A DNA stretch of 64,000 nt from Methylobacter marinus A45 (lineage in GTDB: Bacteria; Pseudomonadota; Gammaproteobacteria; Methylococcales; Methylomonadaceae): the NCBI RefSeq assembly GCF_000383855.1, contig NZ_KB912877.1, positions 4,339,226 through 4,403,225 of the forward strand, written 5' to 3'. Below are positions 41,673 to 62,212 of this stretch, piece by piece (positions within the stretch are counted from its first letter, which is position 1; each line of letters begins with the position of its first letter). A program made the translations under genes and the position numbers. The notes under the pieces are model-generated. The model was not told the origin of the DNA. It worked only from the letters and a program-made list of their open reading frames with translations, and did not search any database.

Positions 41673-41836
41673 TATTTAAGGCGCCTTAACGTTAAGTATA
41701 AACGTTTTTTCTCACTGGTTGATTCAAAGCGACGATAGTGAGGAGGGGATCGTTAATTTAGTCTGAGCAGGTTTAGGTGTCGGGTATAGAAAGTACACAC
41801 AACAAGTCTGCAATTCTCAACGGTAGACCGTATCGC

Positions 41837-43322: not shown

Positions 43323-43374
43323 AACCTCTTTTGTATTTTGTTGAAGGCAGAATTATCAATTCATCTTCACTCAT

Positions 43375-43899
43375 TCAACCGATATAGTTTAAAGTAAACA
43401 GCATCTTATCAGTATAATTGAGGCCGGATGAATTGGCGTCAATACCTATAGCGGTAATAAAACGGTTCATGCAATTCATGATGGCGCAGATACAGACGGA
43501 ATCAAAATACGCATGTTCATCCCAACCCGCATCGAAGATTTTTTGAGCGTCTGCATAGGTAACTTGCTTAGGCGACAGGGTGAGTTTTTTAATTAAGCGA
43601 AGTATCGGTTTTAGCTTGTTATCGATTTTTGCGCTGTGAATACTCGTTTTTAAAGCTGCAAATACGGATTCGTCAAGACCTGAGGCTAATGAAGCGGCTT
43701 TATGGTATTCATAGCTCAGGCTGCATTGGTTCAGATATGACGTGTAAGCAAACAGTAATTGGCGCGTTTCCTTGCTGAAAGGTGATTGATTTCTCATGAT
43801 TTCTTCCATGACCTTAAATAGTAATACCCGGCGACGCGGATATTTTTCCAGCATGTCGGATAAGGAATTAATGTCTGGGTTTGGTGGCAGGTATAACAT
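43375..43899 (-). CDS. AhpD/carboxymuconolactone-decarboxylase-like protein
   Basis: A 174-residue all-helical protein resembling AhpD-like alkylhydroperoxidases. The helix around TSYLNQCSLSYEYHKAASLA aligns with the family active-site helix, but the CxxC redox pair is CSLS: the second Cys is Ser, while the following His is kept. Peroxidase activity by the usual dithiol route is therefore doubtful. I chose ATG 43899 because CAGGAG precedes it; an upstream ATG at 43920 has no such site. It belongs to the minus-strand cargo operon. Confidence 0.75.
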   Translation of the reverse strand: MLYLPPNPDINSLSDMLEKYPRRRVLLFKVMEEIMRNQSPFSKETRQLLFAYTSYLNQCSLSYEYHKAASLASGLDESVFAALKTSIHSAKIDNKLKPILRLIKKLTLSPKQVTYADAQKIFDAGWDEHAYFDSVCICAIMNCMNRFITAIGIDANSSGLNYTDKMLFTLNYIG

Positions 43900-43967
43900 C
43901 GTAGCTCCTGATGATAACATTATAAAATCGGCAATCGGCTGCTATACATAGCCCAATTGCCAGGGGA

Positions 43968-44294
43968 TTAAAAATCGAAACTTTCAACTTCCGCGATCAA
44001 AAATAACGGCGCACCGCCTGTTGAAATATCAACGGCATGTTGTGCGGTTTCCTGTCCGCCCGGTGAATTTAAACAGGCTTCCAAATCCTGCATTGACGGA
44101 AAATAAACTTCGGCAATGCGATGGAAAGGCATTTGTTCCTGGCCGATGCTGGACTTGATCAGCGACGCAACAAAGCGGGTTTTTCCAGCCAGTTTTTCTA
44201 CCGCCATCGGCACATGCTCCTCTGCATAGCGTTGTTCAAATCTATCGACATCGGCAGGTGTTGGGTACATCACAATCAATTTTGCATTTTTCAT
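43968..44294 (-). CDS. EthD-domain protein
   Basis: A 108-residue dimeric alpha/beta-barrel-type protein of the EthD family: KLIVMYPTPADVDRFEQRY, then EEHVPMAVEKLAG, a central strand RIAEVYFPSMQDLEACLNSP, and C-terminal FLIAEVESFDF. EthD proteins occur in ether, quinone and aromatic degradation or cofactor-handling operons; here the role is unknown. It is the first gene of the cargo operon, divergent from the LysR gene, which probably controls it. Confidence 0.82.
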   Translation of the reverse strand: MKNAKLIVMYPTPADVDRFEQRYAEEHVPMAVEKLAGKTRFVASLIKSSIGQEQMPFHRIAEVYFPSMQDLEACLNSPGGQETAQHAVDISTGGAPLFLIAEVESFDF

Positions 44295-44418
44295 GGTTTT
44301 TCATTTTCATAGGATTCGTTTATGGTGATGTAATCCTATTCTCTGCTCATAAGTCTTGTAAAATACTAACTTTCTATGGAAGAATAGGTTTTGGCTATAT
44401 AAGTTCGAGGAAGACACT
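44295..44418. promoter_or_regulatory. divergent LysR/EthD promoter region with 8-bp inverted repeat
   Basis: 124 bp between the EthD start and the LysR start. ATAGGATT at 44309-44316 and AATCCTAT at 44332-44339 form a perfect inverted repeat with a 15-bp spacer, next to the EthD start, a common layout for LysR-type binding sites. Similar ATAGGT / ATCCTAT pieces reappear right after the LysR gene (about 45283-45311). Confidence 0.5.
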
Positions 44419-45291
44419 ATGGAAATGCACCAAATCCGTTATTTTTTAGCGGTTTGCGATCACGGCAGTTTTACCCGTGCCGCGCAATTCAGCTATATTT
44501 CCCAGCCATCTTTAACGCAATCCATTAAAAAACTGGAAGATGAATTAGGCGGGGAATTGTTCATCCGCGACCGTTCCGGCTGTTTGCTGACTTCGCTCGG
44601 CCGCTTGGTGGAGCCTAACTTTCGTAAGATATACAAGGAAACAGTCACGACTAAGGCCGATGCCCTTCGTTTTACCAAGTTGAACAATATCCCGTTGCGG
44701 ATAGGCCTGATGGCAACGATAGGCGCACAACGTTTAAGCCCGATTTTTGCCCATTACAAGCATGAGTTTCCCAATATTGAATTTGAATTGATTATCGACT
44801 GTGAAACTTTATTATTGCAGCAACTGGAATCGGATTTGCTGGATTTGGTGATTAGCGCCCCTGTGCAATTGCTGGGTTCGCCCTATCAATCCACCTTGCT
44901 GTATACCGAAAAGTACGTAGTTGCGTTTAACAACAAGCATCGCTTTAATCACTTGAGCAAAATCGACCTCAAGGAAATCCAGTCCGAGCCTTATTTGGAT
45001 CGGTTGAACTGCGAACTTAGGGATACTCTGCGGGCAATCTGCCAGGACCAGGAAGTCAACCTCTACGCCGCGTACCGTAGCAATAGCGAGGACTGGATCG
45101 TCAACTTGGTGCGCGCTGGCATGGGGGTTGCGTTGATGCCGGAGTACAGCCTGCCTGCAAACGCCGATGACGTGCGATGCCGTTATTTGAGCAATCCGGA
45201 AATCAGCCGCCAGATATATGCGATTTATTATCCGAAGAATGAGAAATATACTGAAATTAAGAACTTACTTACAGTTTTAATCCATAGGTAA
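44419..45291 (+). CDS. LysR-family transcriptional regulator
   Basis: A 290-residue LysR-type regulator. The N-terminal winged HTH (MEMHQIRYFLAVCDHGSFTR, then AAQFSYISQPSLTQSIKKLE) is followed by an effector domain at about 90-285 with LRIGLMATIGAQRLSPIF. It is oriented away from the EthD / AhpD-like / membrane protein / esterase operon and is expected to regulate it in response to a small ligand. No redox Cys pair of the OxyR type is obvious. It is AT-richer than the chromosome, like the rest of the transposon cargo. Confidence 0.92.
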   Translation: MEMHQIRYFLAVCDHGSFTRAAQFSYISQPSLTQSIKKLEDELGGELFIRDRSGCLLTSLGRLVEPNFRKIYKETVTTKADALRFTKLNNIPLRIGLMATIGAQRLSPIFAHYKHEFPNIEFELIIDCETLLLQQLESDLLDLVISAPVQLLGSPYQSTLLYTEKYVVAFNNKHRFNHLSKIDLKEIQSEPYLDRLNCELRDTLRAICQDQEVNLYAAYRSNSEDWIVNLVRAGMGVALMPEYSLPANADDVRCRYLSNPEISRQIYAIYYPKNEKYTEIKNLLTVLIHR

Positions 45292-45571
45292 ATCCTATGT
45301 TTTCATAGGTAATTAGTCTTTTACAAACGCGCCTGATTTCTTGTAATATTATTTCAGACACATCAATAAAAAGCTTGCGCTCATTAGCTTACCTTCCTAA
45401 AGCCAAAAAAATAATTATGTGTCAACCTTATAGCTATATGATAAGGCTATGGAAAGCAGTATAAATACCAAATATTTTGATCTGATTGACTGACTAGGCT
45501 TTTCTCAACTTCTTACTCTAAATAAGGTAATTTACGGCGAGACAGGATGTCTGTATCTGAGGTGGAACATA

Positions 45572-45679
45572 ATGAATGATGTGAAAAAAATCTTGTTGGC
45601 GCTTGGACTACTTTTTTTATTGGTTCAATTCATTACATTTATACTAGTTGGAACCAAAGGTATTTGGTCTGGCTATTGA
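45572..45679 (+). CDS. possible 35-residue membrane peptide
   Basis: A short ORF beginning MNDVKKILLALGLLFLLVQF with one hydrophobic helix and a short polar end (GTKGIWSGY). GAGGTGG lies 6-7 bp upstream. It is too small to assign. It lies in the AT-rich part of the transposon cargo downstream of the LysR gene. Confidence 0.35.
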   Translation: MNDVKKILLALGLLFLLVQFITFILVGTKGIWSGY

Positions 45680-45824
45680 TTTTTAATAAAGTAAGCCAAG
45701 CCTAAACCGAACAGGAAAAGTATTTCAGGCATTTTAACCGTATCAAATCACCTAAGTGAGCTTGTAAATAGTGGTAGCTAACGGCCCTAATTTGATACAG
45801 TCCTAATAAAAGGAGGAACAGATT

Positions 45825-45989
45825 TTGGAAAAAATAAATCAGTACGAATGCCTAACAGAAGCAATCCGTCAAACATTACTATTTGTGTATAAATACAGAT
45901 ACCAATTCGCACTAATTTTGGGGTTTATAATTGCCTTTTTTCCTTCATTAATATTTTTTTTCTACAGTGTTTTCGGTTTAAAGGAATAG
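45825..45989 (+). CDS. possible 54-residue membrane protein (TTG start)
   Basis: A TTG start is preceded by a strong ribosome site, AAGGAGG, 8 bases upstream. The product begins LEKINQYECLTEAIRQTLLF and contains one long hydrophobic segment (FALILGFIIAFFPSLIFFFY). The function is unknown. The ribosome site makes this the better of the two small ORFs in this gap. Confidence 0.42.
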   Translation: MEKINQYECLTEAIRQTLLFVYKYRYQFALILGFIIAFFPSLIFFFYSVFGLKE

Positions 45990-47134
45990 CTTCCCATTGT
46001 TAATTTAGACCTTAGTTGTGTCAATTCATTAAATGTTATCAGACGATCAATTGATTTGTTGAGCATTTAACGAGAGACAGAAACCTTAAAAAAGACACGT
46101 CTTCGAAAAGCATAAGTTCGAAAAGATTGATATGAATGTAAATACCTGTAGAAACCCACGAAAATAAACCATAAGACTTGAAAACATCTACATTTTCAGT
46201 CTGGTTTATTTGTGAGTATCTGACCGCTTCAACCCGTACTAGATGATGAGTCGAAGTTCTTTGCAATCAGCCTACAGACATCGCTCAGGGTTCACAATGT
46301 AAACAAGATGGCCACGCTTTTTGTACTTTTTTTGTTGTGATTGATTTTGGATTAAGCTCAATGATAGTTCCGAAGCTTAATTGTGTTCAAGAGGGCTTTG
46401 CGTATGGTAGCTCATATTTTAAAAATGGTTTGGGCTTTTCTTTTTTTCCAATGCCCATTCCATAACCTTTCTTTACGTTTTGAATGACTGTTTTCAAGGT
46501 CTAATCGGACGTAAGCCAGAAATTAATGACGGTCTCTTGAAGGCCGCTATGAATAGTTATCTATCTATAGCAACCACTGTATAGGGTTAGGGAATGGCTT
46601 TCACCGTCCCTCCCTCCGAACCTGGTGATTAGCGAAATCAGAGAGGCAACCTATAAAGCCTGGGTGTTATAGATTTCGAAGCTAACAAAGCGACATGAAA
46701 ACGAATGTACAAAGAGCGAGCCATCATATGCAGGTGGATGCTATGTAACTTCATTAGCTTCTGTATCTATATGCAATAATCGGTTTAAACAACGCATTCA
46801 AGAACAATTATGGCGGCGAGTTGAGCCCCAATTCAGAGGCGGGGACAGAAAATCGGAACAGTTTAATGCCAAGCGAGTCGTTTCTCTTGGTGGAACTACT
46901 TCATCCTGAGTGACCGCTTTGGGGACAAGGGGCGGATCATGGTCGGCCTCTGAATGGCCGCTTTACGACTTAAACCTGCCATATACCTATGCTTCCTGTA
47001 CGTCAGAAATTGGCCGTTGGCTGACGATGGGTAATCCTAAAATTTGATAATTGCCAATGCCCGCTTTCATTGAAATATCCTGTATTTTCTTATTTGCACA
47101 CATCGTGGTTCCTGAGTGATGTTTGCAGGCTGTT
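45990..47134. other. AT-rich noncoding stretch of transposon cargo
   Basis: About 1.1 kb with no supported gene on either strand; the longest frame (75 codons, minus strand, 46039-46266) has no recognisable features. On the minus strand, 46581-46623 reads GGTTCGGAGGGAGGGACGG, then a small hairpin and CCCTAACCCTAT. This resembles the 3' end of a bacterial group II intron, but a proper domain V is not visible, so any intron is at most a decayed fragment. Confidence 0.35.
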
Positions 47135-47494
47135 TTATACCCCCGCACTCTGCCTATCTATTACCGCCAAGCCATCATCAATTGACACAACACGGGCGTA
47201 CAGCAACATTAAACGCCAAGCCGAATAAGGGATAGCCCGAGCATCATCGGAATCCGGCCTAGCCCTCCATTTTCGGATTGTCGAAGACCCTTTTTTTGGG
47301 TTAAACGACACACCCACCAAGGCCGCCGCTACACTCTGTGACCAACCCGTCAGTTTTACCAAACAGTCCACCTCTTGGGGTGACGGCGGCACATAAGCCG
47401 GGTGGCCGAATGGCAAAGCACACGGCCGGTTCCTAAATGCTTCTAGCGATACCGGCAACGAACCGCCGACATCATAAATAGGTACTATTTCCAT
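47135..47494 (-). CDS. small HTH-like protein typical of plasmids and integrative elements
   Basis: A 119-residue protein whose central part (VKLTGWSQSVAAALVGVSFN) looks like a helix-turn-helix. It is followed by a basic IRKWRARPDS and the aromatic IPYSAWRLMLLYARVV. I recognise this pattern from short proteins carried on proteobacterial ICEs and plasmids; a DNA-binding role is inferred. It lies upstream, in the same orientation, of nothing but the decayed stretch, and 64 bp from the truncated radC. Confidence 0.6.
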   Translation of the reverse strand: MEIVPIYDVGGSLPVSLEAFRNRPCALPFGHPAYVPPSPQEVDCLVKLTGWSQSVAAALVGVSFNPKKGSSTIRKWRARPDSDDARAIPYSAWRLMLLYARVVSIDDGLAVIDRQSAGV

Positions 47495-47558
47495 GACTAT
47501 CTCTTTAAATAATAGGGTAAAAAAGGGGGGCTATATAAGCCCCCATCAAGTTAAAGGG

Positions 47559-47827
47559 CTACATAAGCCCAGCCTCCGCGAAACTGTAGGTTTCTTTGTG
47601 GCTCACGATTATGTGATCTAAGATTCTAACGTCGAACAGTTTCAACGCTTCAATTAGCTTAGTGGTGATACTGCGGTCGGCGACCGATGGCTCTGTCAAT
47701 CCCGAGGGGTGGTTGTGAAAAATAGCTATTGCCGCAGCATTGCACAAAAGAACCTCTTTTGCCACTTCCCTTGGATATACGCTGGCACCATCGATTGTGC
47801 CTCGAAACATCAACTCAGACTTAATTA
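47559..47827 (-). pseudogene. radC: RadC-like JAB-domain protein, 5' end removed by the IS
   Basis: The C-terminal half of a RadC-family protein. It has FRGTIDGASVYPREVAKEVL, the JAMM metal motif HNHPSGLTEPSVADRSIT (His-x-His plus downstream Asp), and the C-terminal LDHIIVSHKETYSFAEAGL. The frame stays open upstream to the left end of IS copy 2 (47828) and is cut there. Only about 85-90 residues remain, against about 160-220 in mobile-element RadC proteins. An internal ATG (47813) could still start translation. RadC-like genes are common in ICEs, prophages and plasmids, so this marks the origin of this end of the cargo. Confidence 0.82.
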
Positions 47828-49659
47828 GTGTTTGAATGAAAATTAATTAATCTCATATTCATCAATAGGTTATAATGATTTTCCAACACGAAGATGTGTT
47901 GCCCTGACCCCGGTTTTGTCTTATTTCCAGCGAAAATCGGCCCGTAACCGCCTAAAAGCCAAAATCTTCATCCCTCGAATTCGCATGCGCACCGTCATTC
48001 AGCCTCAACTCAAATTCGGTGAAACCGATATTGCCGCCATTGTCATTGATCCTAAATCACGTGATGACATTCCCCAACTACTGCGTGGACTGCAATACAT
48101 TTATACCGAGGTCAGCTTGCGTCAGCGGATATTTGCCATTCTGGAAGAGGTCATGCCCGAACGGGCAGGCGGAAAAGGCAAAGCCAGCAATAAAACCGGG
48201 CGACCCGGTATGGAGCAGTGGAAGATACTGGTGTTGGGCGTACTGCGGTTAGGGCTTGATGTGGATTACGACCGGATTCAAGAGTTGGCCAACCAACACA
48301 AGACGATCCGGCAGATGCTGGGGCATAGCGACTGGCTGGACGAACACCGTTATGAATTGCCAACCATCCGGGACAACGTCAGTTTGTTCACGCCCGAGAT
48401 TCTGGATCGCATCAACCAGGAAGTGGTGCATGCGGGACACCAGGCGTTAAAAAAAACGCCGAAGAAAGCCTGAAGACCCGCGCTGATTCCTTTGTGGTCA
48501 AAACCCACGTGCATTTTCCCACCGACACCAACTTGCTGTGGGATGCCATCCGCAAAACGTTGCACACCTGCGCCGCACTCTGCGACGCCCTGAATTTGAC
48601 CGAATGGCGCCAAAGCGCCTATCACTTGCGTTGTTTCAAGAAAAGTTACCGGCTGATTCAAAAGCTCAAGCATTCCACCTCGCAAGATGAAGCCAAACGT
48701 CAGGCCAAGCAAGAGCAAATCGAAGCCGCTTATCAGACCTACCTCGACCAAGCCCAAGTCTATGTGCAACGGGCATACGCCACTCGGCAGCGCCTGAACC
48801 AAGCGCATGGCATATCGGCAGCGATGTTGGCAGATCTCGATGCCTACCTGGCGCATGCCGAGCGGCAGATCGACCAGATTCGTCGTCGGGTCCTGCAAGG
48901 TGAAACCATTCCGCATGCCGAGAAAGTCTTTTCCATTTTTCAACCCCATACCGAATGGATCAGTAAAGGCAAGGCCGGCGTACCGGTCGAGTTGGGATTG
49001 AGGGTGGCTATCGTCGAAGATCAACACCGTTTTATCCTGCACCATCAGGTCATGGCAAAAACCACGGACGATCAAATCGCCGTGACCTTGGTCGAACAAA
49101 CCCAAACCCGCTTTCCCGCGGCAAAAGCCATGAGCTTTGATAAGGGCTTTCACAGCCCAAGGAATCAAGCAGAGCTCAAACAACGCCTGGATAACGTGAT
49201 ATTGCCGAAAAAAGGCCGGCTATCGGAAGCCGACAAAGCCCGCGAATCCGCCCCGGAGTTTGTCCGCCTGCGCCGCCAACATTCAGCGGTTGAATCGGCG
49301 ATCAATGCGCTGGGCGTTCATGGGTTGAACAAATGCCCCGATCATGGCATGGATGGTTTCAAGCGCTACGTGGCCCTCGCCATCGTGGCACGCAATATTC
49401 AGCGTTTGGGCGCCATGCTCCGCGAGCAAGAACAACAAGAAGCCGCTCGACGACGAGGCCCTTACAAAAAAGCGGCCTAAAGGCACGACTGATGACGGAA
49501 AAAAGGACGAAACACGGGAGAGGTGCCGCCAAAATTCGCCCGGAATGGCGGTTGAGCACTTCCAAAAGAGGAAATTGGCTGGCCTGCGCCGAAAAACGGC
49601 TGGAGTTATGCCCAGTGAGTCGGCAGAATCATGAAAAAAGTGAGTTTTCTTTCAGGCAC
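47828..49659 (+). mobile_element. ISNCY-like insertion sequence, copy 2
   Basis: 1,832 bp, same orientation as copy 1 and exactly 7,998 bp downstream. It has the same left terminal repeat and right terminal repeat TTTTCTTTCAGGCAC (49645-49659). The noncoding 3' tail differs from that of copy 1 by many substitutions and an 11-bp net length difference, while the transposase part appears identical. Left flank TAATTA, right flank TACCTA. Confidence 0.85.
47985..49480 (+). CDS. ISNCY-family transposase, probably made by -1 frameshift (copy 2)
   Basis: Same two-phase organisation as in the other copy. Phase one from ATG 47985 ends at a TGA at 48471-48473. The slip site is the eight-A run at 48449-48456. 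Phase two ends at 49480. The translated phases are identical between copies. An intact copy of the same enzyme at both ends means the unit could still be mobile. Confidence 0.8.
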
Positions 49660-50881: not shown

Positions 50882-53272
50882 ATGAATACAAAGACGCTTT
50901 CCCCGGAACTGCTCGACAAGATGGACGCCTACTGGCGCGCCGCCAACTACCTGTCGGTCGGCCAGATTTATCTTTTCGACAATCCGCTGTTGAAACAGCC
51001 GCTCGTCCTTTCAGACATCAAGCACATGCTGCTGGGACACTGGGGCACGACCCCCGGGCAGAATTTCATTTACGTGCACCTGAACCGGGTCATCAAAAAA
51101 TACGACCTCGACATGATCTACGTTTCCGGCCCTGGCCACGGCGGCCCGTCCGTGGTGGCTAATACGTATCTCGAAGGTACTTACAGCGAGATCTATCCCG
51201 ATATCAGCCAGGACGAGGCCGGGCTTCAGAAGCTCTTTCTTCAGTTTTCGTTTCCCGGCGGCATTCCCAGCCACGCCTCGCCGGAATGCCCGGGCTCGAT
51301 CCACGAGGGCGGCGAGCTGGGCTATTCACTCAGCCATGCGTTCGGCGCGGTGTTCGACAATCCCGACCTGGTTGTCGCCTGTGTCGTTGGCGATGGCGAA
51401 GCAGAAACCGGACCGCTGGCTACCGCATGGCATTCCAACAAATTTCTCGACCCGGCTACCGATGGCGCGGTGCTGCCTATCCTGCACCTCAACGGCTACA
51501 AGATCGCCAACCCGACCGTCCTCGCGCGCATCGAGCCGGAAGAGCTGGATCAGTTTCTGCGCGGCAACGGCTGGATACCTTATTACGTCGAGGGGCATGA
51601 GCCTGCGCTGATGCACGAGGCCATGGCCGCAACGCTCGACTCGGCGGTGGAAGAAATCAAACGCATCCAGCACGAAGCGCGCGTCAACGGCAACACCATG
51701 CGCCCGCGCTGGCCCATGATCGTCCTCAAATCACCGAAAGGCTGGACAGGGCCGAAATGGGTGGATGGCCTGCAAATTGAAGGGACTTTCCGTGCGCACC
51801 AAGTGCCGCTTTCCGACCCGTCAGCCCATCCGGAACACCTCAAGCTGCTAGAGGACTGGTTGCGGAGCTACCGGCCGGAAGAGCTGTTCGATACGCAGGG
51901 CAGGCTGAATCCGGAACTGGCCGAACTGGCGCCCAAGGGTGAACGCCGCATGGGCGCCAATCCTCACGCCAACGGCGGCATGCTGCTACGCGACCTGATC
52001 ATGCCGGATTTTCGCAATTACGCAGTCAACGTACCCTCGCCCGGGTCGGTTACCGCTGCCGACGCGCATGAGCTCGGCGTGTTTTTACGCGACGTGGTCA
52101 AGCTTAATCGGGAACAGCGCAATTTTCGGATTTTCGGTCCCGACGAAACACTTTCCAACCGCCTAGGTGCCGTGTTTGAGTTGACCAATCGGCAATGGGA
52201 TGCCCGGACGCAGGACAACGATGAGTTCCTCGCCTTGGATGGCCGGGTGATGGAGATGTTGAGCGAGCATCAATGCGAAGGCTGGCTCGAAGGTTACCTG
52301 CTTACGGGCCGGCACGGATTGTTTAACTGCTACGAGGCGTTTATCCATATCATCGATTCGATGTTCAATCAACACGCCAAGTGGTTGAAGGTCTCGTCGG
52401 AGCTACCGTGGCGACGGAAAATCGCTTCCCTGAATTATTTTCTGGCTTCGCATGTCTGGCAGCAGATGCACAACGGCTTTACCCATCAAGACCCCGGTTT
52501 CATCGACCATGTCGTCAACAAGAAAGCTGATGTCGTGCGAGTTTATCTTCCGCCGGATGCCAACTGCCTGCTGTCGGTGATGGACCATTGCCTGCGCAGC
52601 CGCCATTACGTCAATGTCGTGATCGCGGGCAAGTATCAAGCACCGCAATGGCTGACGATGAATGCCGCCATCAAGCACTGCACGGCAGGCATCGGCAACT
52701 GGCAGTGGGCCAGCAATGACGCAGGCGCTGAACCCGACGTGGTCATGGCCTGTTGTGGCGACGTGCCTACGCTGGAGACGCTTGCCGCCGTCTCCATTAT
52801 GCGTGAGCATCTGCCTGGCCTGAAAATCCGGGTGGTCAACGTCGTCGATCTCATGAAGTTGCAGCCGCAACTCGAGCACCCGCACGGGTTGAGCGATAGG
52901 GATTTCGATGCGCTGTTCACCAAAGACAGGCCGGTCATCTTCGCCTTCCATGGCTATCCGTGGCTGATCCACCGGCTTACCTACCGCCGCACCAACCACG
53001 ATAATATCCACGTCCGCGGCTACAAGGAAGAAGGCACTATCACCACGCCCTTCGACATGACGGTGCTGAACGATCTGGATCGCTTCCATTTGGTGATGGA
53101 TACCATCGACCGCCTGCCGCAGGCTGGCGATAAGGGCATCAGCCTGAAACAGCAGCTCAAGGACAAACTGATCGAACACAAACAATACATCAGGAAACAT
53201 GGCGAGGATATGCCGGAAATCCGCAACTGGAAGTGGGGCGTAAGTCAACCGGGAAGTAACGTGAAGGAGTAA
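50882..53272 (+). CDS. xfp: xylulose-5-phosphate / fructose-6-phosphate phosphoketolase
   Basis: A 796-residue thiamine-diphosphate enzyme cleaving xylulose-5-P (and often fructose-6-P) with phosphate to acetyl-phosphate plus glyceraldehyde-3-P or erythrose-4-P. Signatures are [40 protein letters not shown], the ThDP motif [31 protein letters not shown] and C-terminal [13 protein letters not shown]. Length is full. It pairs functionally with ackA (truncated here), zwf, tal and pgi. Its last about 85 codons recur as fragments downstream (54893-55006, 57764-58021, 59352-59408). Confidence 0.96.
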
Positions 53273-53399
53273 AGCAATGAGCAATTTCCAGCCCGTCGCC
53301 GCGATCCGGTTAGATGTCGACAACAGCCTTAACTCGCAAGGCAGGTGCGCTCCAGTACGGACGAGGCCGCGATCTAACGGATTTAGAAAGAGTGTTCCC

Positions 53400-54890
53400 A
53401 TGCAGCGGTCGGCGTGCCACCGCTATAAACAGGTTCTACGGACGGTTTTGCTCGCTTGTGTGTGCAGTGTGCTGACTGCGACGGTCATGGCGCAGGAATC
53501 GGATGGAAATGCCGGCGAACCACGGAAACTCCCCGCCCCCGGCATAGAAGAACTTTCTTCGGCACCCGCTAATGTGGACGTCAAGCCTGTCGCCCGCGAT
53601 GAGGAGATCCGCAAGCGCCTCCTGAGCGTTCTGAATGCCACCAGTTGGTTCACCGACCCGCAAGTTCGGGTTGAGCAAGGAGTCGTCTTTCTTAGCGGCC
53701 GGGTGGAGTCTGATGAGCTCAAGAAATGGGCCGGTGATCTGGCGCGCAACACTCAGGCCGTCGTCGCCGTGGTCAACCGGATAGAGGTAGTTGTTCCGTC
53801 GGTATGGGATTTTCAGCCTGCGTGGAATGGATTGTTGGTGTTATGGCGCGAGCTCATCCGCTCGCTTCCTTTTTTTGCTTTTGGGCTGCTCATTTTGGCA
53901 TTGTCGGTGGGGGCCGGTGCTCTGGCGACAAAGGTTGCGCGGGTGTTCCTTCGCCAGCACATTAGAGCCAACCTCCTCCGGAATGTCATTGCGCGTGGAG
54001 TAGGCGTGTTCGTTGTGCTTTTCGGCTTCTACATCGTTCTAAGAATTTCCGGCCTGACGCAACTGGCCTTGACGGTGATCGGCGGTACCGGCCTGCTCGG
54101 TCTGGCCGTTGGCATCGCTTTCCGGGATATAACAGAAAATTTCCTGGCGAGCATCTTCCTCAGTATGCAGCGGCCGTTCGAGACTGATGATTTGGTTGAG
54201 GTTGCCGGGGTGACTGGTTATGTGCAGCAACTGAATGTACGCACGACGATTTTAATGACCCTCGACGGCAATCTCGTGCAGATCCCTAATGCAACCGTGT
54301 ACAAGAGTAATCTTCGTAACTTCACAACCAACTGTAACAGACGCGAGGACTTCGTCGTCGGCATCGGCTATGACGATTCGATCAATGACGCCCAGGAGAT
54401 TGTAAGGAAGGTGCTGGCGGATCATCCGGCCGTTCTAAATGACCCTGAGCCAGCGGTGCTGGCGGACAGTCTGGGGCGGGCGACAGTCAACCTACGCGTG
54501 TATTTTTGGCTCAATGGCCGCGAATACAGTTGGTTGAAAGTACGTTCTTCGCTCATACGGCTGGTGAAAACCGCCTTTCAGAAGCATGGCATTTCGATGC
54601 CTGACGAAGCGCGGGAAGTAATTTTCCCTCAGGGAATTCCAGTCACACTGCTCGAAGGGATATCGGCAGGGACGCATGGCGCTTTGTCACGAAAAGGGCT
54701 TCCTGCTGAATCGCTGCACGAAGAAGCCGATGCAGTGTCCACTAAAGCGGAAGCCGGATTATACAGCGAAGCCGAGGTCATTGAGGAACAGGCGCGACGG
54801 GTTCAACCCTTGCAAGAGGGAGAGAATCTGTTGCTGAATGCTTCCGGAACTACCGCTTCCGGGAAACAGACGAAACAACCCAAACCATAA
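53400..54890 (+). CDS. MscS-family mechanosensitive channel with N-terminal BON-like domain
   Basis: A 496-residue protein. The signal peptide (LRTVLLACVCSVLTATVMA) is followed by a periplasmic BON-like domain (about 65-130; LNATSWFTDPQVRVEQGVVF, then LSGRVESDELKKWAGDLAR). Three membrane helices follow, the last being the pore helix GTGLLGLAVGIAFRDITENF, and then the MscS beta domain (VTGYVQQLNVRTTILMTLDG, IPNATVYKSNLRNF). It should release solutes under hypo-osmotic stress. I prefer ATG 53400. An in-frame ATG at 53277, with AAGGAG upstream, would add 41 residues whose start (MSNFQPVAAIRLDVDNS) looks like a decayed HAD motif I. Confidence 0.88.
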   Translation: MQRSACHRYKQVLRTVLLACVCSVLTATVMAQESDGNAGEPRKLPAPGIEELSSAPANVDVKPVARDEEIRKRLLSVLNATSWFTDPQVRVEQGVVFLSGRVESDELKKWAGDLARNTQAVVAVVNRIEVVVPSVWDFQPAWNGLLVLWRELIRSLPFFAFGLLILALSVGAGALATKVARVFLRQHIRANLLRNVIARGVGVFVVLFGFYIVLRISGLTQLALTVIGGTGLLGLAVGIAFRDITENFLASIFLSMQRPFETDDLVEVAGVTGYVQQLNVRTTILMTLDGNLVQIPNATVYKSNLRNFTTNCNRREDFVVGIGYDDSINDAQEIVRKVLADHPAVLNDPEPAVLADSLGRATVNLRVYFWLNGREYSWLKVRSSLIRLVKTAFQKHGISMPDEAREVIFPQGIPVTLLEGISAGTHGALSRKGLPAESLHEEADAVSTKAEAGLYSEAEVIEEQARRVQPLQEGENLLLNASGTTASGKQTKQPKP

Positions 54891-54892
54891 AG

Positions 54893-55006
54893 ACCGGCGA
54901 CCAGGGGGGCGCCCTGAAGAAGCGATTCAATGACAAGCTCATCGAGCACAAGCTATACATCGACAAGTACGGTCAAGACATGCCGGAAATCCGCAACTGG
55001 AAATAG
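54893..55006 (+). pseudogene. phosphoketolase C-terminal tail, fragment 1
   Basis: Read from 54893 the frame gives TGDQGGALKKRFNDKLIEHK followed by [17 protein letters not shown] and a stop. It is a diverged copy of the last about 38 residues of phosphoketolase. It lies directly after the MscS gene and 16 bp before the DUF389 gene. No start codon or function is expected. Confidence 0.8.
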
Positions 55007-55022
55007 AAAGGGTGAAACGACT

Positions 55023-56018
55023 ATGGCGCTACGATTGATTGAGATGGTATTAACGGAGCAGGACAGCGAGGAAGTCCTGGAACTGCTCAAGGAGCACAAG
55101 GTGCTGGAACATCGGCAGGTTCGATTATCGGACGGGGAAGTACTGGTAAGGATTTTATTGGAAGCGGAACAAAGCGAGGCGGTGCTGGATTTATTGGAGA
55201 AACGCTACGCCGATGCGGAGGGCAACCGGGTAGTGATTCTGGCTGTTGAAGCGACATTGCCGCGCCCCGAGCCGGAGTCGGCCGCCACGCCCGAACAACC
55301 GTTGACCGAGGAAAAAGAGCCTGAACGGATCAGACGGGAGGAATTGTACGAGGACATCAAAAACGGCGCGACGTGTTCACCGGTTTATCTCACGATGGTG
55401 GTATTGTCCACCATCGTGGCTGCCGTCGGTCTATACCACAACAGCGTCACGATCATCATCGGAGCCATGGTAATTGCGCCGCATCTAGGACCGAACGTGG
55501 CGCTGGCGCTGGCGACGACGCTGGGCGATTTGCCGCTGGCCCGGGACGCGTTCAAGACGAACCTGAGCGGTATTGCCACGACAACGGTGTTGTCGGTTAT
55601 TATCGGTACGTTGGTATCTGTGGATCCGACATTGTCCGAGGTGGCGTTGCGCACACGGGTGGGGCTTGACGACATCGTGCTGGCATTGGCGTCGGGCTGT
55701 GCGGGAGCACTGGCGTTTACGATAGGGACGTCGACGACACTGATTGGGGTGGCGGTGGCGGTGGCATTATTGCCGCCGTTGGTGACCTTTGGTTTGCTGC
55801 TGGGTGGTGGGCATCCGGCATTGGCGATGGGTGCACTGGCGCTGTTTCTGGTGAACCTGATCAGCGTGAACCTTGCCGGGGTGGTCACATTTCTGGTGCA
55901 GGGCATTCATCCGGCAACCTGGTGGGAGAAAGATCAAGCCGAAAAAGCCACCAACACCGCACTCAGACTATGGGTAGCGTTGTTGGCGGCATTGGTTGTC
56001 CTGATCCTGCTGTTTTAA
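55023..56018 (+). CDS. DUF389 / TIGR00341-type membrane protein
   Basis: A 331-residue protein. A cytosolic N-terminal alpha/beta domain (MALRLIEMVLTEQDSEEVLE, about 1-80) leads through an acidic linker into the DUF389 membrane domain: VYLTMVVLSTIVAAVGLYHN, SVTIIIGAMVIAPHLGPNVA, ALAFTIGTSTTLIGVAVAVA and further helices, about six in all. Function is not established for the family; a transport role is often suggested. I chose ATG 55023 over an upstream start that lies in the phosphoketolase-tail fragment. It belongs to the stress/ion-transport run of genes. Confidence 0.88.
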   Translation: MALRLIEMVLTEQDSEEVLELLKEHKVLEHRQVRLSDGEVLVRILLEAEQSEAVLDLLEKRYADAEGNRVVILAVEATLPRPEPESAATPEQPLTEEKEPERIRREELYEDIKNGATCSPVYLTMVVLSTIVAAVGLYHNSVTIIIGAMVIAPHLGPNVALALATTLGDLPLARDAFKTNLSGIATTTVLSVIIGTLVSVDPTLSEVALRTRVGLDDIVLALASGCAGALAFTIGTSTTLIGVAVAVALLPPLVTFGLLLGGGHPALAMGALALFLVNLISVNLAGVVTFLVQGIHPATWWEKDQAEKATNTALRLWVALLAALVVLILLF

Positions 56019-56140
56019 AAGAGCTGTATGATCAGAGAAAAAACTGAGAATGGTCAATTACACGGTGTGGTCGCCTCGGTGCAAGACCATGTCGTATTTA
56101 TATGATTCGCCAAACATTATTATCACAACAGGAGAACACC

Positions 56141-56473
56141 ATGCAAATCCAGATTAATACCGACCACAATATAGAAGGTCACGAGGCACTTTCCGCTCGG
56201 GTCAGTGGTATCGTAGAAAGTGCTTTTAGCCAAATCAGCGATCACATCACGCGAGTGGAAGTCCACCTAAGCGATGAGAACAGCGACAAGAAGCACGGCA
56301 ATGACGACATGCGTTGCATGATGGAAGCACGCCTCGAAGGCCGTCAGCCGGTTGCGGTCACTCACCATGCTAAGACCTTGGACCAAGCCGTTGACGGTGC
56401 TGCTGATAAGTTGTGCAGATTGATCGATAGCACCCTGGGGCGACTGCGCGATCAAAAGGGCCATAGAGACTGA
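56141..56473 (+). CDS. HPF/RaiA-family ribosome-associated protein
   Basis: A 110-residue protein with the HPF/RaiA (sigma-54 modulation) fold: strand MQIQINTDHNIEGHEALSAR, helix VSGIVESAFSQISDHITRVE, strand VHLSDENSDK, strand CMMEARLEGRQPVAVTHHAK, helix LDQAVDGAADKLCRLIDSTL. It may bind ribosomes during starvation or stress. ATG 56141 follows ACAGGAGAACACC. The short form lacks the C-terminal dimerisation domain of long HPF. Confidence 0.82.
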   Translation: MQIQINTDHNIEGHEALSARVSGIVESAFSQISDHITRVEVHLSDENSDKKHGNDDMRCMMEARLEGRQPVAVTHHAKTLDQAVDGAADKLCRLIDSTLGRLRDQKGHRD

Positions 56474-56862
56474 TCCGCCAGCGCCGGAGATATCAATCAG
56501 TGTCGACCGCACCATGAAAGCCTTGGACACTCCGAGTAACAGCCAATATCAGCAATCGGTGCGCGCGTTGGGTGACTACTATTCCATCGTGGAACTGGGG
56601 CTTGAAATTTGTCTCCGAGGCACTGGATCAGCGGCATCGGTGACTGAAGAGACCAGAAAAAGGGATAAAGCTCATTGGAGACTGGAGCATTCGAACGTAT
56701 GTGACGAAGAATAAAGCGGTTTATTTGTTGGTTCTTCTTTGTCAGGTTACGTAATCAATACTTTCCATGATCGTCATTCCGGCATGGAAGCGGGTATGAC
56801 GAGCTTGCTCATTAATCCTACAAGTAGAATTAACGCAGGTACCGCAAACACAAGGTAAGAAG
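56474..56862. other. intergenic stretch before ppk2
   Basis: 389 bp. A 66-codon frame (56514-56714, MKALDTPSNSQYQQSVRALG) has no ribosome site or known domain and is not called with confidence; it could be the remnant of a small gene. Nothing else is seen. Confidence 0.4.
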
Positions 56863-57738
56863 ATGAAAATAAATATCAAAGATTTCCGGGTGCCGGAAGG
56901 CGAAAAGGTCAACCTCGAAAAGTGGCCGACGCTCGTGGACCCAGTGTACAAGTCAAAGAAAAAGTACCACAAAATTCTCGAAGAACAGGTTGAGGAGTTG
57001 AGCTCGCTGCAACGTCTTCACTACGCCTCTGACCGCTACGCGCTGTTGCTGATTTTTCAGGCCATGGATGCCGCCGGCAAGGACGGCGCCATCCGGCACG
57101 TCATGTCCGGTGTCAATCCACAAGGCTGCCAGGTGTTCAGCTTTAAACACCCGAGTGCTATGGAACTGGATCACGATTTTTTGTGGCGCACTTCCCAGTG
57201 TTTGCCGGAACGCGGCCGGATCGGCATCTTTAACCGATCCTATTATGAGGAGGTGTTGATCGTTCGAGTGCATCCGGAGATTCTGCGCAGTCAAGGGCTG
57301 CCGAACGAGTTACTAGACGAAAAAACTGTCTGGAAGGAGCGCTATCGGTCTATCGTGGACCTGGAGAACCATCTCTATCGCAACGGCACACGAATCCTCA
57401 AATTCTTCCTTCATCTTTCAGAGGAAGAGCAGCGAAAGCGCTTTCTCGATCGCATCGACGAGCCCGAAAAAAACTGGAAATTCAGTCTTGCCGACATTGA
57501 GGAGAGGAAATTCTGGAATCAGTACATGCAGGCCTATGAGGCGTGTCTAAGCGCAACGAGTACAAAAACTGCGCCCTGGGATGTGGTGCCCGCCGACGAC
57601 AAAAAGAACGCCCGGCTGATTATTTCCGAGATTATTCTCGACACTTTCAAGGCGCTCAAAATGAGCTATCCAGAAACCTCCTCAAAACGCCAGCAGGAAT
57701 TGCTGTTGATCCGCAAGCAGCTTGAGAAGCAAGGCTGA
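56863..57738 (+). CDS. ppk2: polyphosphate kinase 2 family protein
   Basis: A 291-residue PPK2-type kinase that uses polyphosphate to phosphorylate nucleotides (AMP/ADP or GMP/GDP). Walker A is [20 protein letters not shown], the lid/catalytic segment is [20 protein letters not shown], and [20 protein letters not shown] and [20 protein letters not shown] follow. The sub-class (I, II or III) cannot be decided by eye. It is preceded by AAGGTAAGAAG. A phosphoketolase-tail fragment follows. Confidence 0.92.
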
Positions 57739-57763
57739 TTTGGCAACGAACCGAGGGGTATAT

Positions 57764-58021
57764 ATGACATCATTTCACACAGACCGGCTTAACGAAGAAG
57801 GCACTATTACCACGCCCTTCGACATGACGGTGCTGAACGATCTGGACCGCTTCCACCTGGTGATGGACACCATCGACCGCCTGCCGCAGACCGGCGACAA
57901 AGGCCTCTCCTTGAAGCAACAACTGATGGACAAGCTCCTCGAGCACAAGCAGTACATCAACAAGCACGGCCAAGACATGCCGGAAATTCGGAACTGGAAG
58001 TGGGAGCTACCCCATGAATAG
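57764..58021 (+). pseudogene. phosphoketolase C-terminal tail, fragment 2
   Basis: An 85-residue frame starting MTSFHTDRLN and continuing [20 protein letters not shown] to [14 protein letters not shown]. From about residue 10 it matches the last about 75 residues of the upstream phosphoketolase with about six substitutions, so it is a separate, closely related allele rather than a fresh duplicate. ATG 57764 has GAGGGG upstream and could be translated. It overlaps the DUF2254 gene start by 8 bp. Confidence 0.85.
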
Positions 58022-59408
58022 GTTCAGTCAGTTCTGGAGCAATCTGCGGTCGAGCTTCTGGTTTATGCCTTCGATGATTGTCGTGGCCAGTATCGCCCTC
58101 GCGGCGGTTTTGATCGAGCCAGACTCCGTCGTGAGCGACCGATGGCTGGCGCAGTGGCCGCGACTGTTTGGGGCCGGGGCGGAAGGCGCTCGAGGAATGA
58201 TGTCCACCATTGCTGGCTCCATGATGACCGTGGTGGGCGTGACATTCTCGATGGTCTTGATGGTGCTGGCGACGTCTTCGAGCCAATACACCTCACGCAT
58301 CGTGCGAAATTTCATTCGCAGCCGTGTCACTCAGGTCGTGCTTGGAATTTTCGCCGGCAATTTCACTTATTGCCTGATCGTCTTGCGCACGATTCGCAGT
58401 GGCGATGAAGGCGCATTTGTTCCCAACCTGGCCGTTTCCTTCGGCTTCGTTCTGGCACTCTGTGGTGTCGGCGCACTGATCTTCTTCATTCATCACATCG
58501 CCTCTTCGATCCAGGCTTCCAACATCATCGCTTCGGTCGCAGAGGAAACGATCGCTGCCGTCGACCGATTGTTTCCGGTCAACCTCGGACAAGGAGCGGG
58601 CGACGACGATGCTGATGATGAGCAACCACCACGCCCGCCGTCCGAGCGGAAGTGGCGAGCCGTCATGGCCAGCGAGAGTGGCTATATCCAAGGCGTGAAT
58701 AGTGAAGCGCTCGTTCGCTTGGCGCGGGACAGGAATACGATCGTGTGGATGGATCACGGCATCGGCGAGTTCGTTGTCCAGAACACCACGCTGGCCTCAT
58801 TAGCTCTGGAAGAGCCGCCGGATCAAGCGACGATCGACGCCCTACAGGCGACGTTCCACATCAGCAGCCACCGCACGGTGGTTCAGGACGCGGCCTTCGG
58901 TATCAGGCAGATCGTCGATATCGCGCTGAAAGCACTCTCTCCCGGCATCAACGATACAACGACCGCGGTAATGTGCGTGGATTATTTGACGGCGATTCTG
59001 GCGCGGATAGCGCAGCGGGAAATCCCCTCATCGCGTCGCTACGAGGAAGGGGAACTGCGAGTGATCGCGAAAGGTCCACGCTTCGAAAGCTTGCTGGCCG
59101 AATCGTTCGACCAGATTCGAAGCAACGCCAAAGGCGACGTCGCCATTATGTCGCGGATGCTCGGCGCGTTTCAAACCCTGGCCAGTTTGACGGCCAGCCC
59201 ACGCCGCCGGCGCGTGCTTGGCGAACAAGTGCAATGGATTGCCGAGTTGGCCGAGCGTTCCCTCGAGTCCGCCCATGACCGCGCGAGGATCGACACACGG
59301 CTGGCGCGTGTGCGCGAAGCGCTCGAAGCTGGGCCGGCTTTATGCACAGGTGAGGGGCAGGACTACAAACACGGCGAGAACATGTCGGAAATCCGCAACT
59401 GGAAGTGA
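58014..59408 (+). CDS. DUF2254 membrane protein, with phosphoketolase-tail C-terminus
   Basis: A 464-residue protein. The DUF2254 membrane part (about 15-165) has helices around FMPSMIVVASIALAAVLI, MMTVVGVTFSMVLMVLATSS and FGFVLALCGVGALIFFIHHI. It is followed by a cytosolic region with VQDAAFGIRQIVDIALKALS and PGINDTTTAVMCVDYLTAIL, characteristic of the family. The last 18 residues (EGQDYKHGENMSEIRNWK) look like the end of phosphoketolase, so the natural stop was probably replaced by a fusion to an xfp remnant. Function is unknown. Confidence 0.87.
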   Translation: MNRFSQFWSNLRSSFWFMPSMIVVASIALAAVLIEPDSVVSDRWLAQWPRLFGAGAEGARGMMSTIAGSMMTVVGVTFSMVLMVLATSSSQYTSRIVRNFIRSRVTQVVLGIFAGNFTYCLIVLRTIRSGDEGAFVPNLAVSFGFVLALCGVGALIFFIHHIASSIQASNIIASVAEETIAAVDRLFPVNLGQGAGDDDADDEQPPRPPSERKWRAVMASESGYIQGVNSEALVRLARDRNTIVWMDHGIGEFVVQNTTLASLALEEPPDQATIDALQATFHISSHRTVVQDAAFGIRQIVDIALKALSPGINDTTTAVMCVDYLTAILARIAQREIPSSRRYEEGELRVIAKGPRFESLLAESFDQIRSNAKGDVAIMSRMLGAFQTLASLTASPRRRRVLGEQVQWIAELAERSLESAHDRARIDTRLARVREALEAGPALCTGEGQDYKHGENMSEIRNWK

Positions 59409-59486
59409 GGGCAACTCTAAATCAATGTCGATCTGCCTGCCTTGCTTAAATCCACCAAAACCGACAACGCGGAACAGGAGGGAATG

Positions 59487-60560
59487 ATGAAAGCCACACA
59501 ACAACTGCATGATCTCGGCCAGCGCCTTTGGCTCGATAACATTACACGTGGACTGTTGACGAGCGGCACGCTGCAGCGCTACATCAGCGAGCTTTCGTTG
59601 ACAGGGCTCACTTCCAACCCCACGATTTTCGATCAGGCTATCAAGGGCGCCGATTTCTACGATGACGCTATCCGCCGGAAAGCGGCCGAAGGCAAGTCGG
59701 GCGAGGCACTGTTCCTAGAACTGGAACTGGAGGATTTGACTCAAGCCGCCGACCTGTTTCGCCCGATCCATGACGCCACCGACGGGGTGGACGGCTGGGT
59801 ATCGCTGGAGCTGTCTCCCTTGCTGGCGGACGATACGGCCAATAGCGTCAAAATGGCTGCGCAACTGCATGAACGAGCACAGCGGCCCAATATTTTCATT
59901 AAGATTCCGGGGACTTCCGCAGGCATTCCTGCGATCGAGGAATCCATCTTCGGAGGCGTGCCGGTGAATGTCACGCTGCTTTTTTCACGTGAGCAATATA
60001 TCGCGGCGGCCGAGGCATACATGCGCGGCATCGAACGACGGATCGCCGCCGGCCTCGATCCCAAGGTCGATTCCGTGGCGTCCATTTTCGTCAGCCGCTG
60101 GGATGTGGTCGTCAAGGACGAGGTTCCGGCCGAGCTTCGCAATCGCTTCGGCATCGCCATCGCCAAGCGTACCTATAAGGCCTACCGCGAACTGCTGGAC
60201 TCGCTCCGCTCGCGGAAACTGGCCGAGGCCGGAGCCAGGCCGCAGCGTCTGCTTTGGGCCAGTACCGGAACCAAGGACCCTGAGGCCTCCGACACCATGT
60301 ACATCGACGCGCTCGCGGCGCCGGATACGATCAATACCATGCCCGAGAAGACGTTGCTCGCCTTTGCCGATCATGGGCAAGTGAAAGGCGAGTTGCCGAT
60401 CGATGGCGGCAATGCCGAAGAAGTGCTCGCCACCTTCGCGAGGGTAGGCATGGACGATGCGGCGCTCGCAGACAGGCTCCAGCGCGAGGGCGCCCAGGCC
60501 TTCGTAAAGTCCTGGAATGACTTGATGGTCAGCATTGCCGTAAAGGCAGACGGAGGGTAA
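59487..60560 (+). CDS. tal: transaldolase
   Basis: A 357-residue transaldolase (sedoheptulose-7-P + glyceraldehyde-3-P to erythrose-4-P + fructose-6-P). Signatures are [20 protein letters not shown], Schiff-base Lys in [47 protein letters not shown] and [17 protein letters not shown] is 5 bp before ATG 59487; the adjacent ATG at 59484 is too close to it. pgi follows 2 bp after the stop, so they form a tal-pgi operon. Confidence 0.95.
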
Positions 60561-60562
60561 AG

Positions 60563-62212
60563 ATGAGCGCTGCTTCGCAACCGCCGACCGAGCGCCCGGC
60601 ATGGAAGGCGCTAGAGGCGCATTATCAATCCATGCAAAATCGGCACCTGCGTCAGCTTTTCGCCGATGATCCCGAACGTGGCGAGCGCTTCGCGGTCGAG
60701 GCTGCCGGCGTTTATCTCGATTATTCGAAGAACCGCATCACCGACGAGACGATCAGGCTGCTCGTGCAGCTTGCCGACGAGTGCGGGCTGCGCGATCGAA
60801 TTGACGCGATGTTCAATGGTGAAAAAATCAACGTGACGGAAAGGCGGGCTGTTTTGCACACCGCCTTGCGCGCCCCTCAAAGGCAATCCATCGTTGTGAA
60901 TGGCGAAGACGTCGTGCCTCAGGTTCATGCCGTGCTCGACAAGATGGCCGATTTTTCCTGCCGGATACGCAGCGGGGAGTGGAAGGGATGCACCGGCAAG
61001 CCGGCCCGCAATATCATCAATATCGGCATCGGCGGATCTGAGCTGGGGCCGGTGATGGCGTATGAGGCATTGCGATATTACAGCCGGCGCGACCTGACCT
61101 TCCGCTTCATCTCCAACATCGACGGCACCGACTTTGTCGAGGCGATGCACGGCCTCGATGCCGAGGAGACCCTGTTCATCATCTCGTCGAAGTCTTTTGT
61201 CACCCTGGAGACGATGACCAATGCGAGCACAGCCCGCGATTGGGTCTTAAAGACTTTGCAACATCCCGGCGCAATTTCCAGACATTTCGTCGCGGTCTCG
61301 ACCAACGTCGGGAAAGTGGTCAAGTTCGGCATCGACGCCGAAAATGTATTCGGGTTTTGGGATTGGGTCGGCGGGCGCTACTCGATGGACTCGGCGATCG
61401 GTCTGTCGACCATGATCGCCATCGGCCCTGAAAACTTCCGGGCCATGCTCGATGGTTTCCACCAGATGGACGAGCATTTCCGCACGGCCCCTTTCGAGCG
61501 TAACCTGCCGGCGCTCATGGGGCTGCTGGGCCTCTGGTACAACAACTTTTTCGGCGCGCAGACCGTGGCGGTTCTTCCGTATGAGCGGTACTTGAAGCGC
61601 TTCCCGGCTTATCTTCAGCAGTTGACTATGGAAAGCAATGGCAAGCACGTCACGCTGGACGGGGCGGAGGTCGTCTGCCAGACTGGGCCAATCTACTGGG
61701 GGGAACCGGGCACCAATGGCCAGCATTCCTTTTACCAACTGATTCATCAGGGAACCAAGCTTATCCCCTGTAACTTCATCGGGTTTTCTCAGCCGCTTAA
61801 TCCTCTCGGCCGCCACCACGATTTACTCATGGCCAACCTGTTTGCCCAGGCAGAGGCGCTGGCCTTTGGTAAAACGCCGCAGGAAGTCAGCGCCGAGGGA
61901 ATCCCTGCATGGCAGGTGCCGCATCGAACCTTCGAAGGTAACCGTCCGTCAAGCACGATCCTCCTGGAGCGGTTGACGCCGGCAGCGCTGGGTAAACTCG
62001 TCGCACTGTATGAACACAGCGTCTTCACTCAAGGCACCATTTGGAAAATTGACTCATTTGACCAGTGGGGTGTCGAACTGGGTAAAGCGCTTGCCGCGCG
62101 CATCATCCCCGAGCTTGAGGCAGGGGCTAATTGCCAACTCAAGCATGATAGCTCAACCAATGCTCTGATCCGGCGCTACAGGAGATCCAGGGGACTGTTG
62201 CAGGGCTCATAA
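60563..62212 (+). CDS. pgi: glucose-6-phosphate isomerase
   Basis: A 549-residue isomerase interconverting glucose-6-P and fructose-6-P. Motifs are [60 protein letters not shown] and [20 protein letters not shown], with C-terminal [14 protein letters not shown]. Length is normal. It is coupled to tal and, with phosphoketolase and G6P dehydrogenase, feeds hexose phosphate into pentose-phosphate and acetyl-phosphate routes. Confidence 0.96.

Follow-up and report, generated by a model that had tools for sequence, protein, structure and literature searches.

Why does the 3' end of a phosphoketolase gene (xfp) recur three times behind the intact gene in Methylobacter marinus A45, each time in front of a different gene? 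The locus, from a family that includes methanotrophs, lies in a stretch of 64,000 nucleotides (contig NZ_KB912877.1, positions 4,339,226 to 4,403,225; hereafter the window), by which positions are counted below; the genes and gene ends from xfp to PGI are on the forward strand. The intact xfp (50882-53272) is followed by a gene for a BON-MscS channel and then by three diverged copies of its own 3' end: T1 before a DUF389 gene, T2 before a DUF2254 gene, and T3 before the transaldolase gene tal. We consider it probable that the locus is a displacement array, formed as xfp-linked operons were captured at a single xfp via the shared gene and surplus xfp bodies disappeared. Genomes and loci used for comparison are cited by our numbers (G and L).

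Repeat finding and a translated search bore out the preliminary description of the window, made from its letters alone, according to which the xfp end recurs before different genes. The repeated part of xfp is 53024-53237. T1 (54891-55006; search span 54890-55003) comprises the 38 codons first described, followed by TAG where xfp has W; it shares 66% amino acid identity with xfp over those codons and 71.9% nucleotide identity with the xfp end over 114 nt. T2 (57791-58021; search span 57791-58004) begins at 57791 and not, as first given, at 57764. Its 70 codons are 91% identical to the xfp end at the amino acid level and 84.3% at the nucleotide level (210 nt), and the sole Pfam match of its open reading frame is XFP_C (E 1.5e-25). 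T1 and T2 share 78.9% nucleotide identity. T3 (59365-59408), the shortest copy, has about 15 codons rather than 19; as a protein it is a weak match genome-wide (E 0.14), but at the DNA level it matches the xfp ends of both G092 and G093 with 91% identity over 43 bp (E 5e-11, searched against a small set of retrieved loci). Since T1 and T2 are only 72% and 84% identical to the xfp end, they are no fresh duplication, which agrees with the original view of the tails as diverged. A contig-joining artefact is unlikely because all copies of the xfp end lie within one contig of 4.98 Mb.

The left borders of the tails look like illegitimate joins. Homology of MscS to its G092 counterpart ends at the stop codon (54890), and T1 starts at 54891. 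Homology of PPK2, the last gene before T2, ends approximately at its stop codon, from which T2 is separated by 52 bp. The DUF2254 gene has no stop codon of its own and reads into T3. The possibility that this tail is a conserved part of DUF2254 proteins, named from the outset as one that would overturn the reading, was rejected: DUF2254 of G346 ends approximately where the window protein enters T3, and the Pfam domain covers only residues 12-387 of the latter. Compared with a Nitrospira xfp (L069), T2 has 3, 2, and 16 changes at codon positions 1, 2, and 3 (70 of each), mainly at third positions, as expected of an end that was once part of a working gene. The corresponding numbers for T1 are 7, 4, and 10 (38 of each).

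Each of the four blocks that accompany these ends (MscS; DUF389-HPF-PPK2; DUF2254; tal) has a counterpart immediately downstream of an intact xfp in some other genome. The preliminary description had suggested looking for related genomes with xfp directly before DUF389, DUF2254, or tal, and genomes with these gene orders exist (G017, G072, G136, and G150; G346; and G564, respectively), as does one with MscS in this place. Block 1, the BON-MscS gene (53277-54890), has its counterpart directly behind the clade B xfp of G092 (83% amino acid identity). Block 2 contains genes for a DUF389 membrane protein (55023-56018, with start and spacer as in G017; the start given by the open reading frame finder, 54930, lies inside T1), the ribosome hibernation factor HPF (S30AE; 56102-56473), and PPK2 (56863-57738), as well as a scrap of an N-type ATPase gamma gene, atpG (56499-56618; 67.5% identity over 40 residues to atpG of G017). 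The gene orders are xfp-DUF389-N-type ATPase operon-PPK2 in G017, xfp-DUF389-HPF-ATPase operon in G072, xfp-DUF389 (damaged)-HPF (84%)-PPK2 (92%) in G150, and xfp-DUF389 (part)-PPK2 (88%) in G136, whose xfp is of the A type. Because the atpG scrap stands between HPF and PPK2, block 2 looks like an operon of the G017/G072 kind without its ATPase.

Block 3 is the DUF2254 membrane protein gene (58014-59408), the C-terminal part of which continues in frame into T3. In G346, xfp (84%) directly precedes a DUF2254 gene (66%), which is the best match besides the window's own among the 237 genomes of the family and 369 genomes of the class searched. A C-terminal remnant of DUF2254 stands behind xfp in G274. 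Block 4, tal (59442-60560, with the real start likely at 59484), corresponds to the order ackA-xfp-TAL in G564 (TAL 70%, about 160 bp between matched ends); xfp-TAL also occurs in G520, with TAL of only 44% identity. The adjoining gene for glucose-6-phosphate isomerase (PGI; 60563-62212) has a counterpart directly behind xfp in G175. The protein families named for the blocks and for PGI were assigned by Pfam.

The joints themselves are partly shared. The window matches G092 in the xfp-MscS spacer, the B-type xfp end and the spacer running on together as they do there, and the stretch joining T1 to DUF389 matches the spacer between xfp and DUF389 in G017. For MscS and DUF389, the joint between xfp and the next gene is thus conserved, inherited as sequence. 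The letters of the T2/DUF2254 spacer differ from those in G346; in both genomes, the last bases of the xfp frame overlap the start of DUF2254. Behind MscS of G092, the contig end (L188, 1-110) looks like the start of a DUF2254 gene, and xfp-MscS-DUF2254 may be one unit in that genome. The G346 locus also carries internal xfp pieces (L242, 13785-13929; residues 694-742), located 6.5 kb behind the intact xfp-DUF2254 pair.

The intact xfp is itself a mosaic. Its body groups with clade A (G201, Opitutae, Nitrospira, plasmid copies, and others) when 103 near-full-length xfp rows, the window included and several loci twice, are aligned; clade B, the xfp of G017, G092, G150, and others, stands at 72-75%. 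The clades were typed at 388 sites at which 15 A references differ from 9 B references. Before nt 2280, the window gene is A-like at 310 sites and B-like at 48, and in its last ~75 bp it is B-like at seven of eight informative sites and A-like at one (Fisher p 8.7e-6, a value that is not blind since the boundary was taken from an earlier alignment). The switch maps between 53161 and 53176, and the B-type 3' end (53161-53236, counted with the switch) is 94.7% identical to G017 over 76 bp. Within the 210-nt xfp end, the nearest row is G136 for columns 1-93 (A, 95.7%) and G017 for columns 136-210 (B, 94.7%). The window xfp is chimeric: its body is of clade A, its last ~60-75 bp are of clade B, and next comes the MscS gene that in G092 follows a clade B xfp. 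This switch, taken together with the B-type neighbour MscS, indicates exchange within xfp at least once. T1 has an A-like left part and a B-type DUF389 joint on its right; its conserved last 70 bp are ambiguous (nearest B rows 91.7%, A rows 87.5%). The homologous exchange anchored in the xfp 3' end that was proposed at the start is supported by the switch beside MscS and by the passage of T1 from A-like sequence into a B-type joint, and not for every tail. What speaks for it at T2 is the co-occurrence of tail and gene elsewhere, and at T3 the adjacency of xfp and tal elsewhere, and deletion alone can leave a tail.

As a displacement array, the locus would have formed as follows. Operons of the type xfp-X (X being MscS, DUF389-HPF-N-ATPase-PPK2, DUF2254, or tal) would circulate among bacteria, and an incoming operon would pair with the resident xfp, because xfp is the part common to these operons. 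With each capture, the xfp body would acquire a new 3' end and the operon attached to it, and the older 3' end would be shunted downstream along with its own operon. The extra xfp bodies would be lost, so that an xfp tail would be left before each older operon. The DNA could have entered by one-sided homologous recombination, its right-hand join being illegitimate, by a single crossover with a circle, or by exchange and subsequent deletion; the route, like the number and order of captures, is what we infer from the present arrangement. A tail may be kept because it contains or adjoins the translation start of the next gene. T2, whose open frame overlaps DUF2254, may even now be translated.

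Orphan tails and damaged xfp genes are not confined to the window. Tails without an xfp body stand before a class I fructose-bisphosphate aldolase gene in G075, G085, and G317 (71, 72, and 53% identity to an annotated plasmid aldolase). Within one genus, xfp-aldolase is intact in G081, and tail-aldolase only is present in G075 and G085. Among the 14 listed places with the aldolase gene just behind an xfp end, L189 and L246 are orphan tails, five others have xfp cut or frame-shifted, and L172 and L192 are the same plasmid; intact pairs are those of the plasmid, G081, L130, L137, L095, and L072. In Nitrospira BO4, an orphan tail precedes a P-type ATPase gene, with an intact xfp 9 kb away. That orphan tails stand before the aldolase and ATPase genes, both of which follow an intact xfp elsewhere, speaks for the displacement array. 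In G047, a tail lies between PPK2 and ackA. Further orphan tails occur in G507, G160, G161, G142, and G062, and G016 retains an xfp scrap of 12-15 codons. Internal deletion or insertion has cut xfp in G019, G023, G040, Nitrospira L145, and G586, and the gene is broken near contig ends in G008.

Orphan tails exceed orphan heads, which is no more than suggestive, the counts being small, incomplete, and hand-chosen. For the class, the 78-aa start of xfp was compared with the tail in the same 369 genomes, with thresholds of E 1e-12 for the tail (within a longer query) and 1e-6 for the head. Four genomes (G000, G507, G317, and G498) have orphan tails away from contig ends; G466 and G450 (near contig starts) and G500 (running to the contig end) were left out of this count. 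No orphan head was confirmed in these genomes; the short head in G586 adjoins its own tail, and short or cut heads in G500 and G450 were not read. For the family (237 genomes), a hand-chosen set was searched again, 22 genomes for tails (17 of the family, five of the class) and 21 of the family for heads. This yielded tails in at least G075, G085, G160, and G161, with weaker ones in G062, G142, and G016, and heads in at least G021 and G071, neither of which was read.

Several observations weigh against a displacement array. An intermediate array turned up in no strain. How capture proceeded is reconstructed from end products, and plain deletion also makes tails. Such deletion-like fusions are seen in G085, which has a truncated HAD gene, the tail, and the aldolase gene, and in G498, where a 311-aa open frame (L276, 787-1722) joins the start of acetate kinase (ackA) to an xfp end; a tail is therefore no proof of capture. 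The tails in G160, G161, and G142 (L306, L307, and L309), which are of a more distant xfp type and abut the end of a convergent gene, appear to be remnants of an ancestral xfp that has been lost. Tails have thus come about in more ways than one, and some are not scars of capture. T1, although nearest to xfp, has more changes at codon positions 1 and 2 than T2, which opposes a simple order in which the last arrival lies nearest. T3 is short, and for tal the counterpart is xfp-tal adjacency elsewhere only. Finally, the tail phylogeny called for in the preliminary description was run, and the approximately unbiased (AU) test did not reject one common origin for T1, T2, and the xfp end, 210 nt being too little for a tree. 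In a quick tree, p was 0.956 for this single origin and 0.969 for that of the xfp end and T2 alone, and the constrained one-clade tree scored better than the free one. A more careful tree (37/97 rows) gave p 0.086 and 0.108, the value for the xfp end, T1, and T2 being 0.086.

The fusions in G085 and G498 favour a different history, in which whole xfp operons were brought together by whatever route (plasmid integration, activity of insertion sequences (IS), or non-homologous joining) and the surplus xfp was shrunk by deletions halted on the right by the translation start of the next gene; xfp homology would not have been the entry point. The internal xfp deletions in G023, G586, and Nitrospira L145 and the presence of IS copies near the window locus fit as well. 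The clade switch within the xfp 3' end, combined with the B-type neighbour MscS, does not, and we regard such accretion and decay as unlikely, if still worth serious consideration. Copying of the xfp end in place, with later insertion of blocks unrelated to xfp, is compatible with the short tail tree, and local copying of this kind is seen at the genome's other xfp locus. Such an origin is very improbable for T1-T3, since each copy precedes a gene that follows xfp elsewhere, and T2 is nearer to a Nitrospira xfp (90%) than to the neighbouring window xfp (84%). Tandem duplication likewise suits the second locus and not this one, where the units differ downstream and are only 72-84% identical.

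Elements that integrate at the 3' end of a gene and restore it leave the gene end repeated after each inserted block, and a repeated gene end at every block border is what the window shows. A recombinase using the xfp 3' end as its attachment site and rebuilding it at each insertion is nevertheless hardly credible here. None was detected among the 14 window proteins scanned, which are part of the window's open reading frames, one sub-threshold match to a DDE transposase aside; the original remark that no integrase was visible stands to this extent, and an integrase-type element was rejected. The tails range from ~43 to 214 bp and differ in sequence (72-84% for the two longer ones), so they lack the fixed core repeat of such elements. 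A tRNA-borne site was rejected because the window contains no tRNA gene. It is also most improbable that the tails were copied for a function of their own, as short genes or leaders driving translation of the next gene. The 8-base overlap of T2 with the DUF2254 start and the overlap of the xfp stop with the DUF2254 start in G346 agree with such a role. Against it stand the T1 stop codon in place of the xfp W, the many changes of T1 at codon positions 1 and 2, and the fusion of T3 to the preceding gene; function may explain why tails are retained, not how they originated.

Displacement arrays have precedents. For Rhs C-terminal displacement arrays, homologous recombination with circular intermediates has been proposed, by which the old end is shunted downstream (Jackson et al., 2009, PMC2935791). 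They resemble the xfp locus in that an intact gene is followed by fragments of the same gene, each with its own former downstream partner; here, T1-T3 follow the intact xfp with a different partner each, and all four displaced units exist elsewhere as intact gene-partner pairs. In Rhs arrays, a toxin-like tip of the same protein is exchanged, whereas at the xfp locus whole neighbouring operons are involved, and the Rhs core fragments within a locus are described as identical (PMC2935791), whereas identity to the xfp end is 71.9% for T1 and 84.3% for T2 and the xfp fragments are 72-84% alike. Orphan immunity arrays of the type VI secretion system in Vibrio cholerae, for which homology-facilitated illegitimate recombination was proposed, also show stepwise insertion of modules, with older genes, once a gene 3' end, left downstream (PMC5361080). 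They differ in comprising effector-immunity modules under toxin selection in related species, in contrast to the metabolic and stress genes and the cross-phylum anchor of the xfp locus; the Pfam content of the latter (channel, DUF389, S30AE, PPK2, DUF2254, TAL, PGI) includes no toxin, effector, or immunity protein. Homology-facilitated illegitimate recombination has been measured in the laboratory and is rare in Escherichia coli conjugation (3e-10 per recipient; PMC3240628). One homologous and one illegitimate end would likewise leave a block followed by an old gene end; what is seen at the xfp locus are end products and one mapped crossover within xfp. No mention of xfp tails was found in the titles and abstract openings listed by literature searches, to which the look was confined.

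Clade A xfp occurs in many phyla and on plasmids. Records labelled Gallionella, Opitutae, Nitrospira, Limisphaerales, Acidobacteria, Anaerolineales, and Aminicenantes contain the xfp tail at 90-96% identity; all of them are metagenome-assembled genomes, in which misbinning is possible. Plasmids carry xfp in Methylophaga thalassica (typed non-mobilizable) and in Methylotuvimicrobium alcaliphilum and Nitrobacter hamburgensis (both typed conjugative); when DUF2254 and MscS were searched for on plasmids, no match reached 60% identity. It is conceivable, and in our judgement doubtful, that the conserved last ~75 bp of xfp serve as an integrase-free landing pad across phyla, with operons slotted behind the resident gene by short-homology recombination. 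If so, xfp would be the shared socket of a cassette-like exchange of stress and sugar-phosphate operons that leaves countable scars. Toxin, effector, and immunity loci are where displacement arrays have been described, with strong selection as the presumed driving force. Here the fossil pattern recurs in metabolic and stress genes, every block having an intact counterpart and one crossover being mapped. This suggests that any gene that is often transferred can serve as an anchor for recombination and bring operons together, and the scars of such a gene make past captures countable.

The second xfp locus of the genome (L037, 8335-8925) contains a tandem repeat with a period of 206, 2.9 copies, and 97% matches. 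The repeat unit consists of the xfp end and a spacer with palindromic repeats, and its tripling has produced two further orphan tails of 23 codons. These are tandem-repeat products, distinct from T1-T3.

Upstream of the window xfp, two identical 1,666-bp IS-like copies (39828-41493 and 47826-49491) flank a GC-poor stretch of ~6.3 kb. The pair (39828-49491) splits a P-type ATPase-BrkB fusion gene at residue 811 of an intact relative. In L112 (2941-6564), a 1,207-aa open frame directly upstream of xfp combines a P-type ATPase with a BrkB-like membrane domain, the halves of which are separate in the window.

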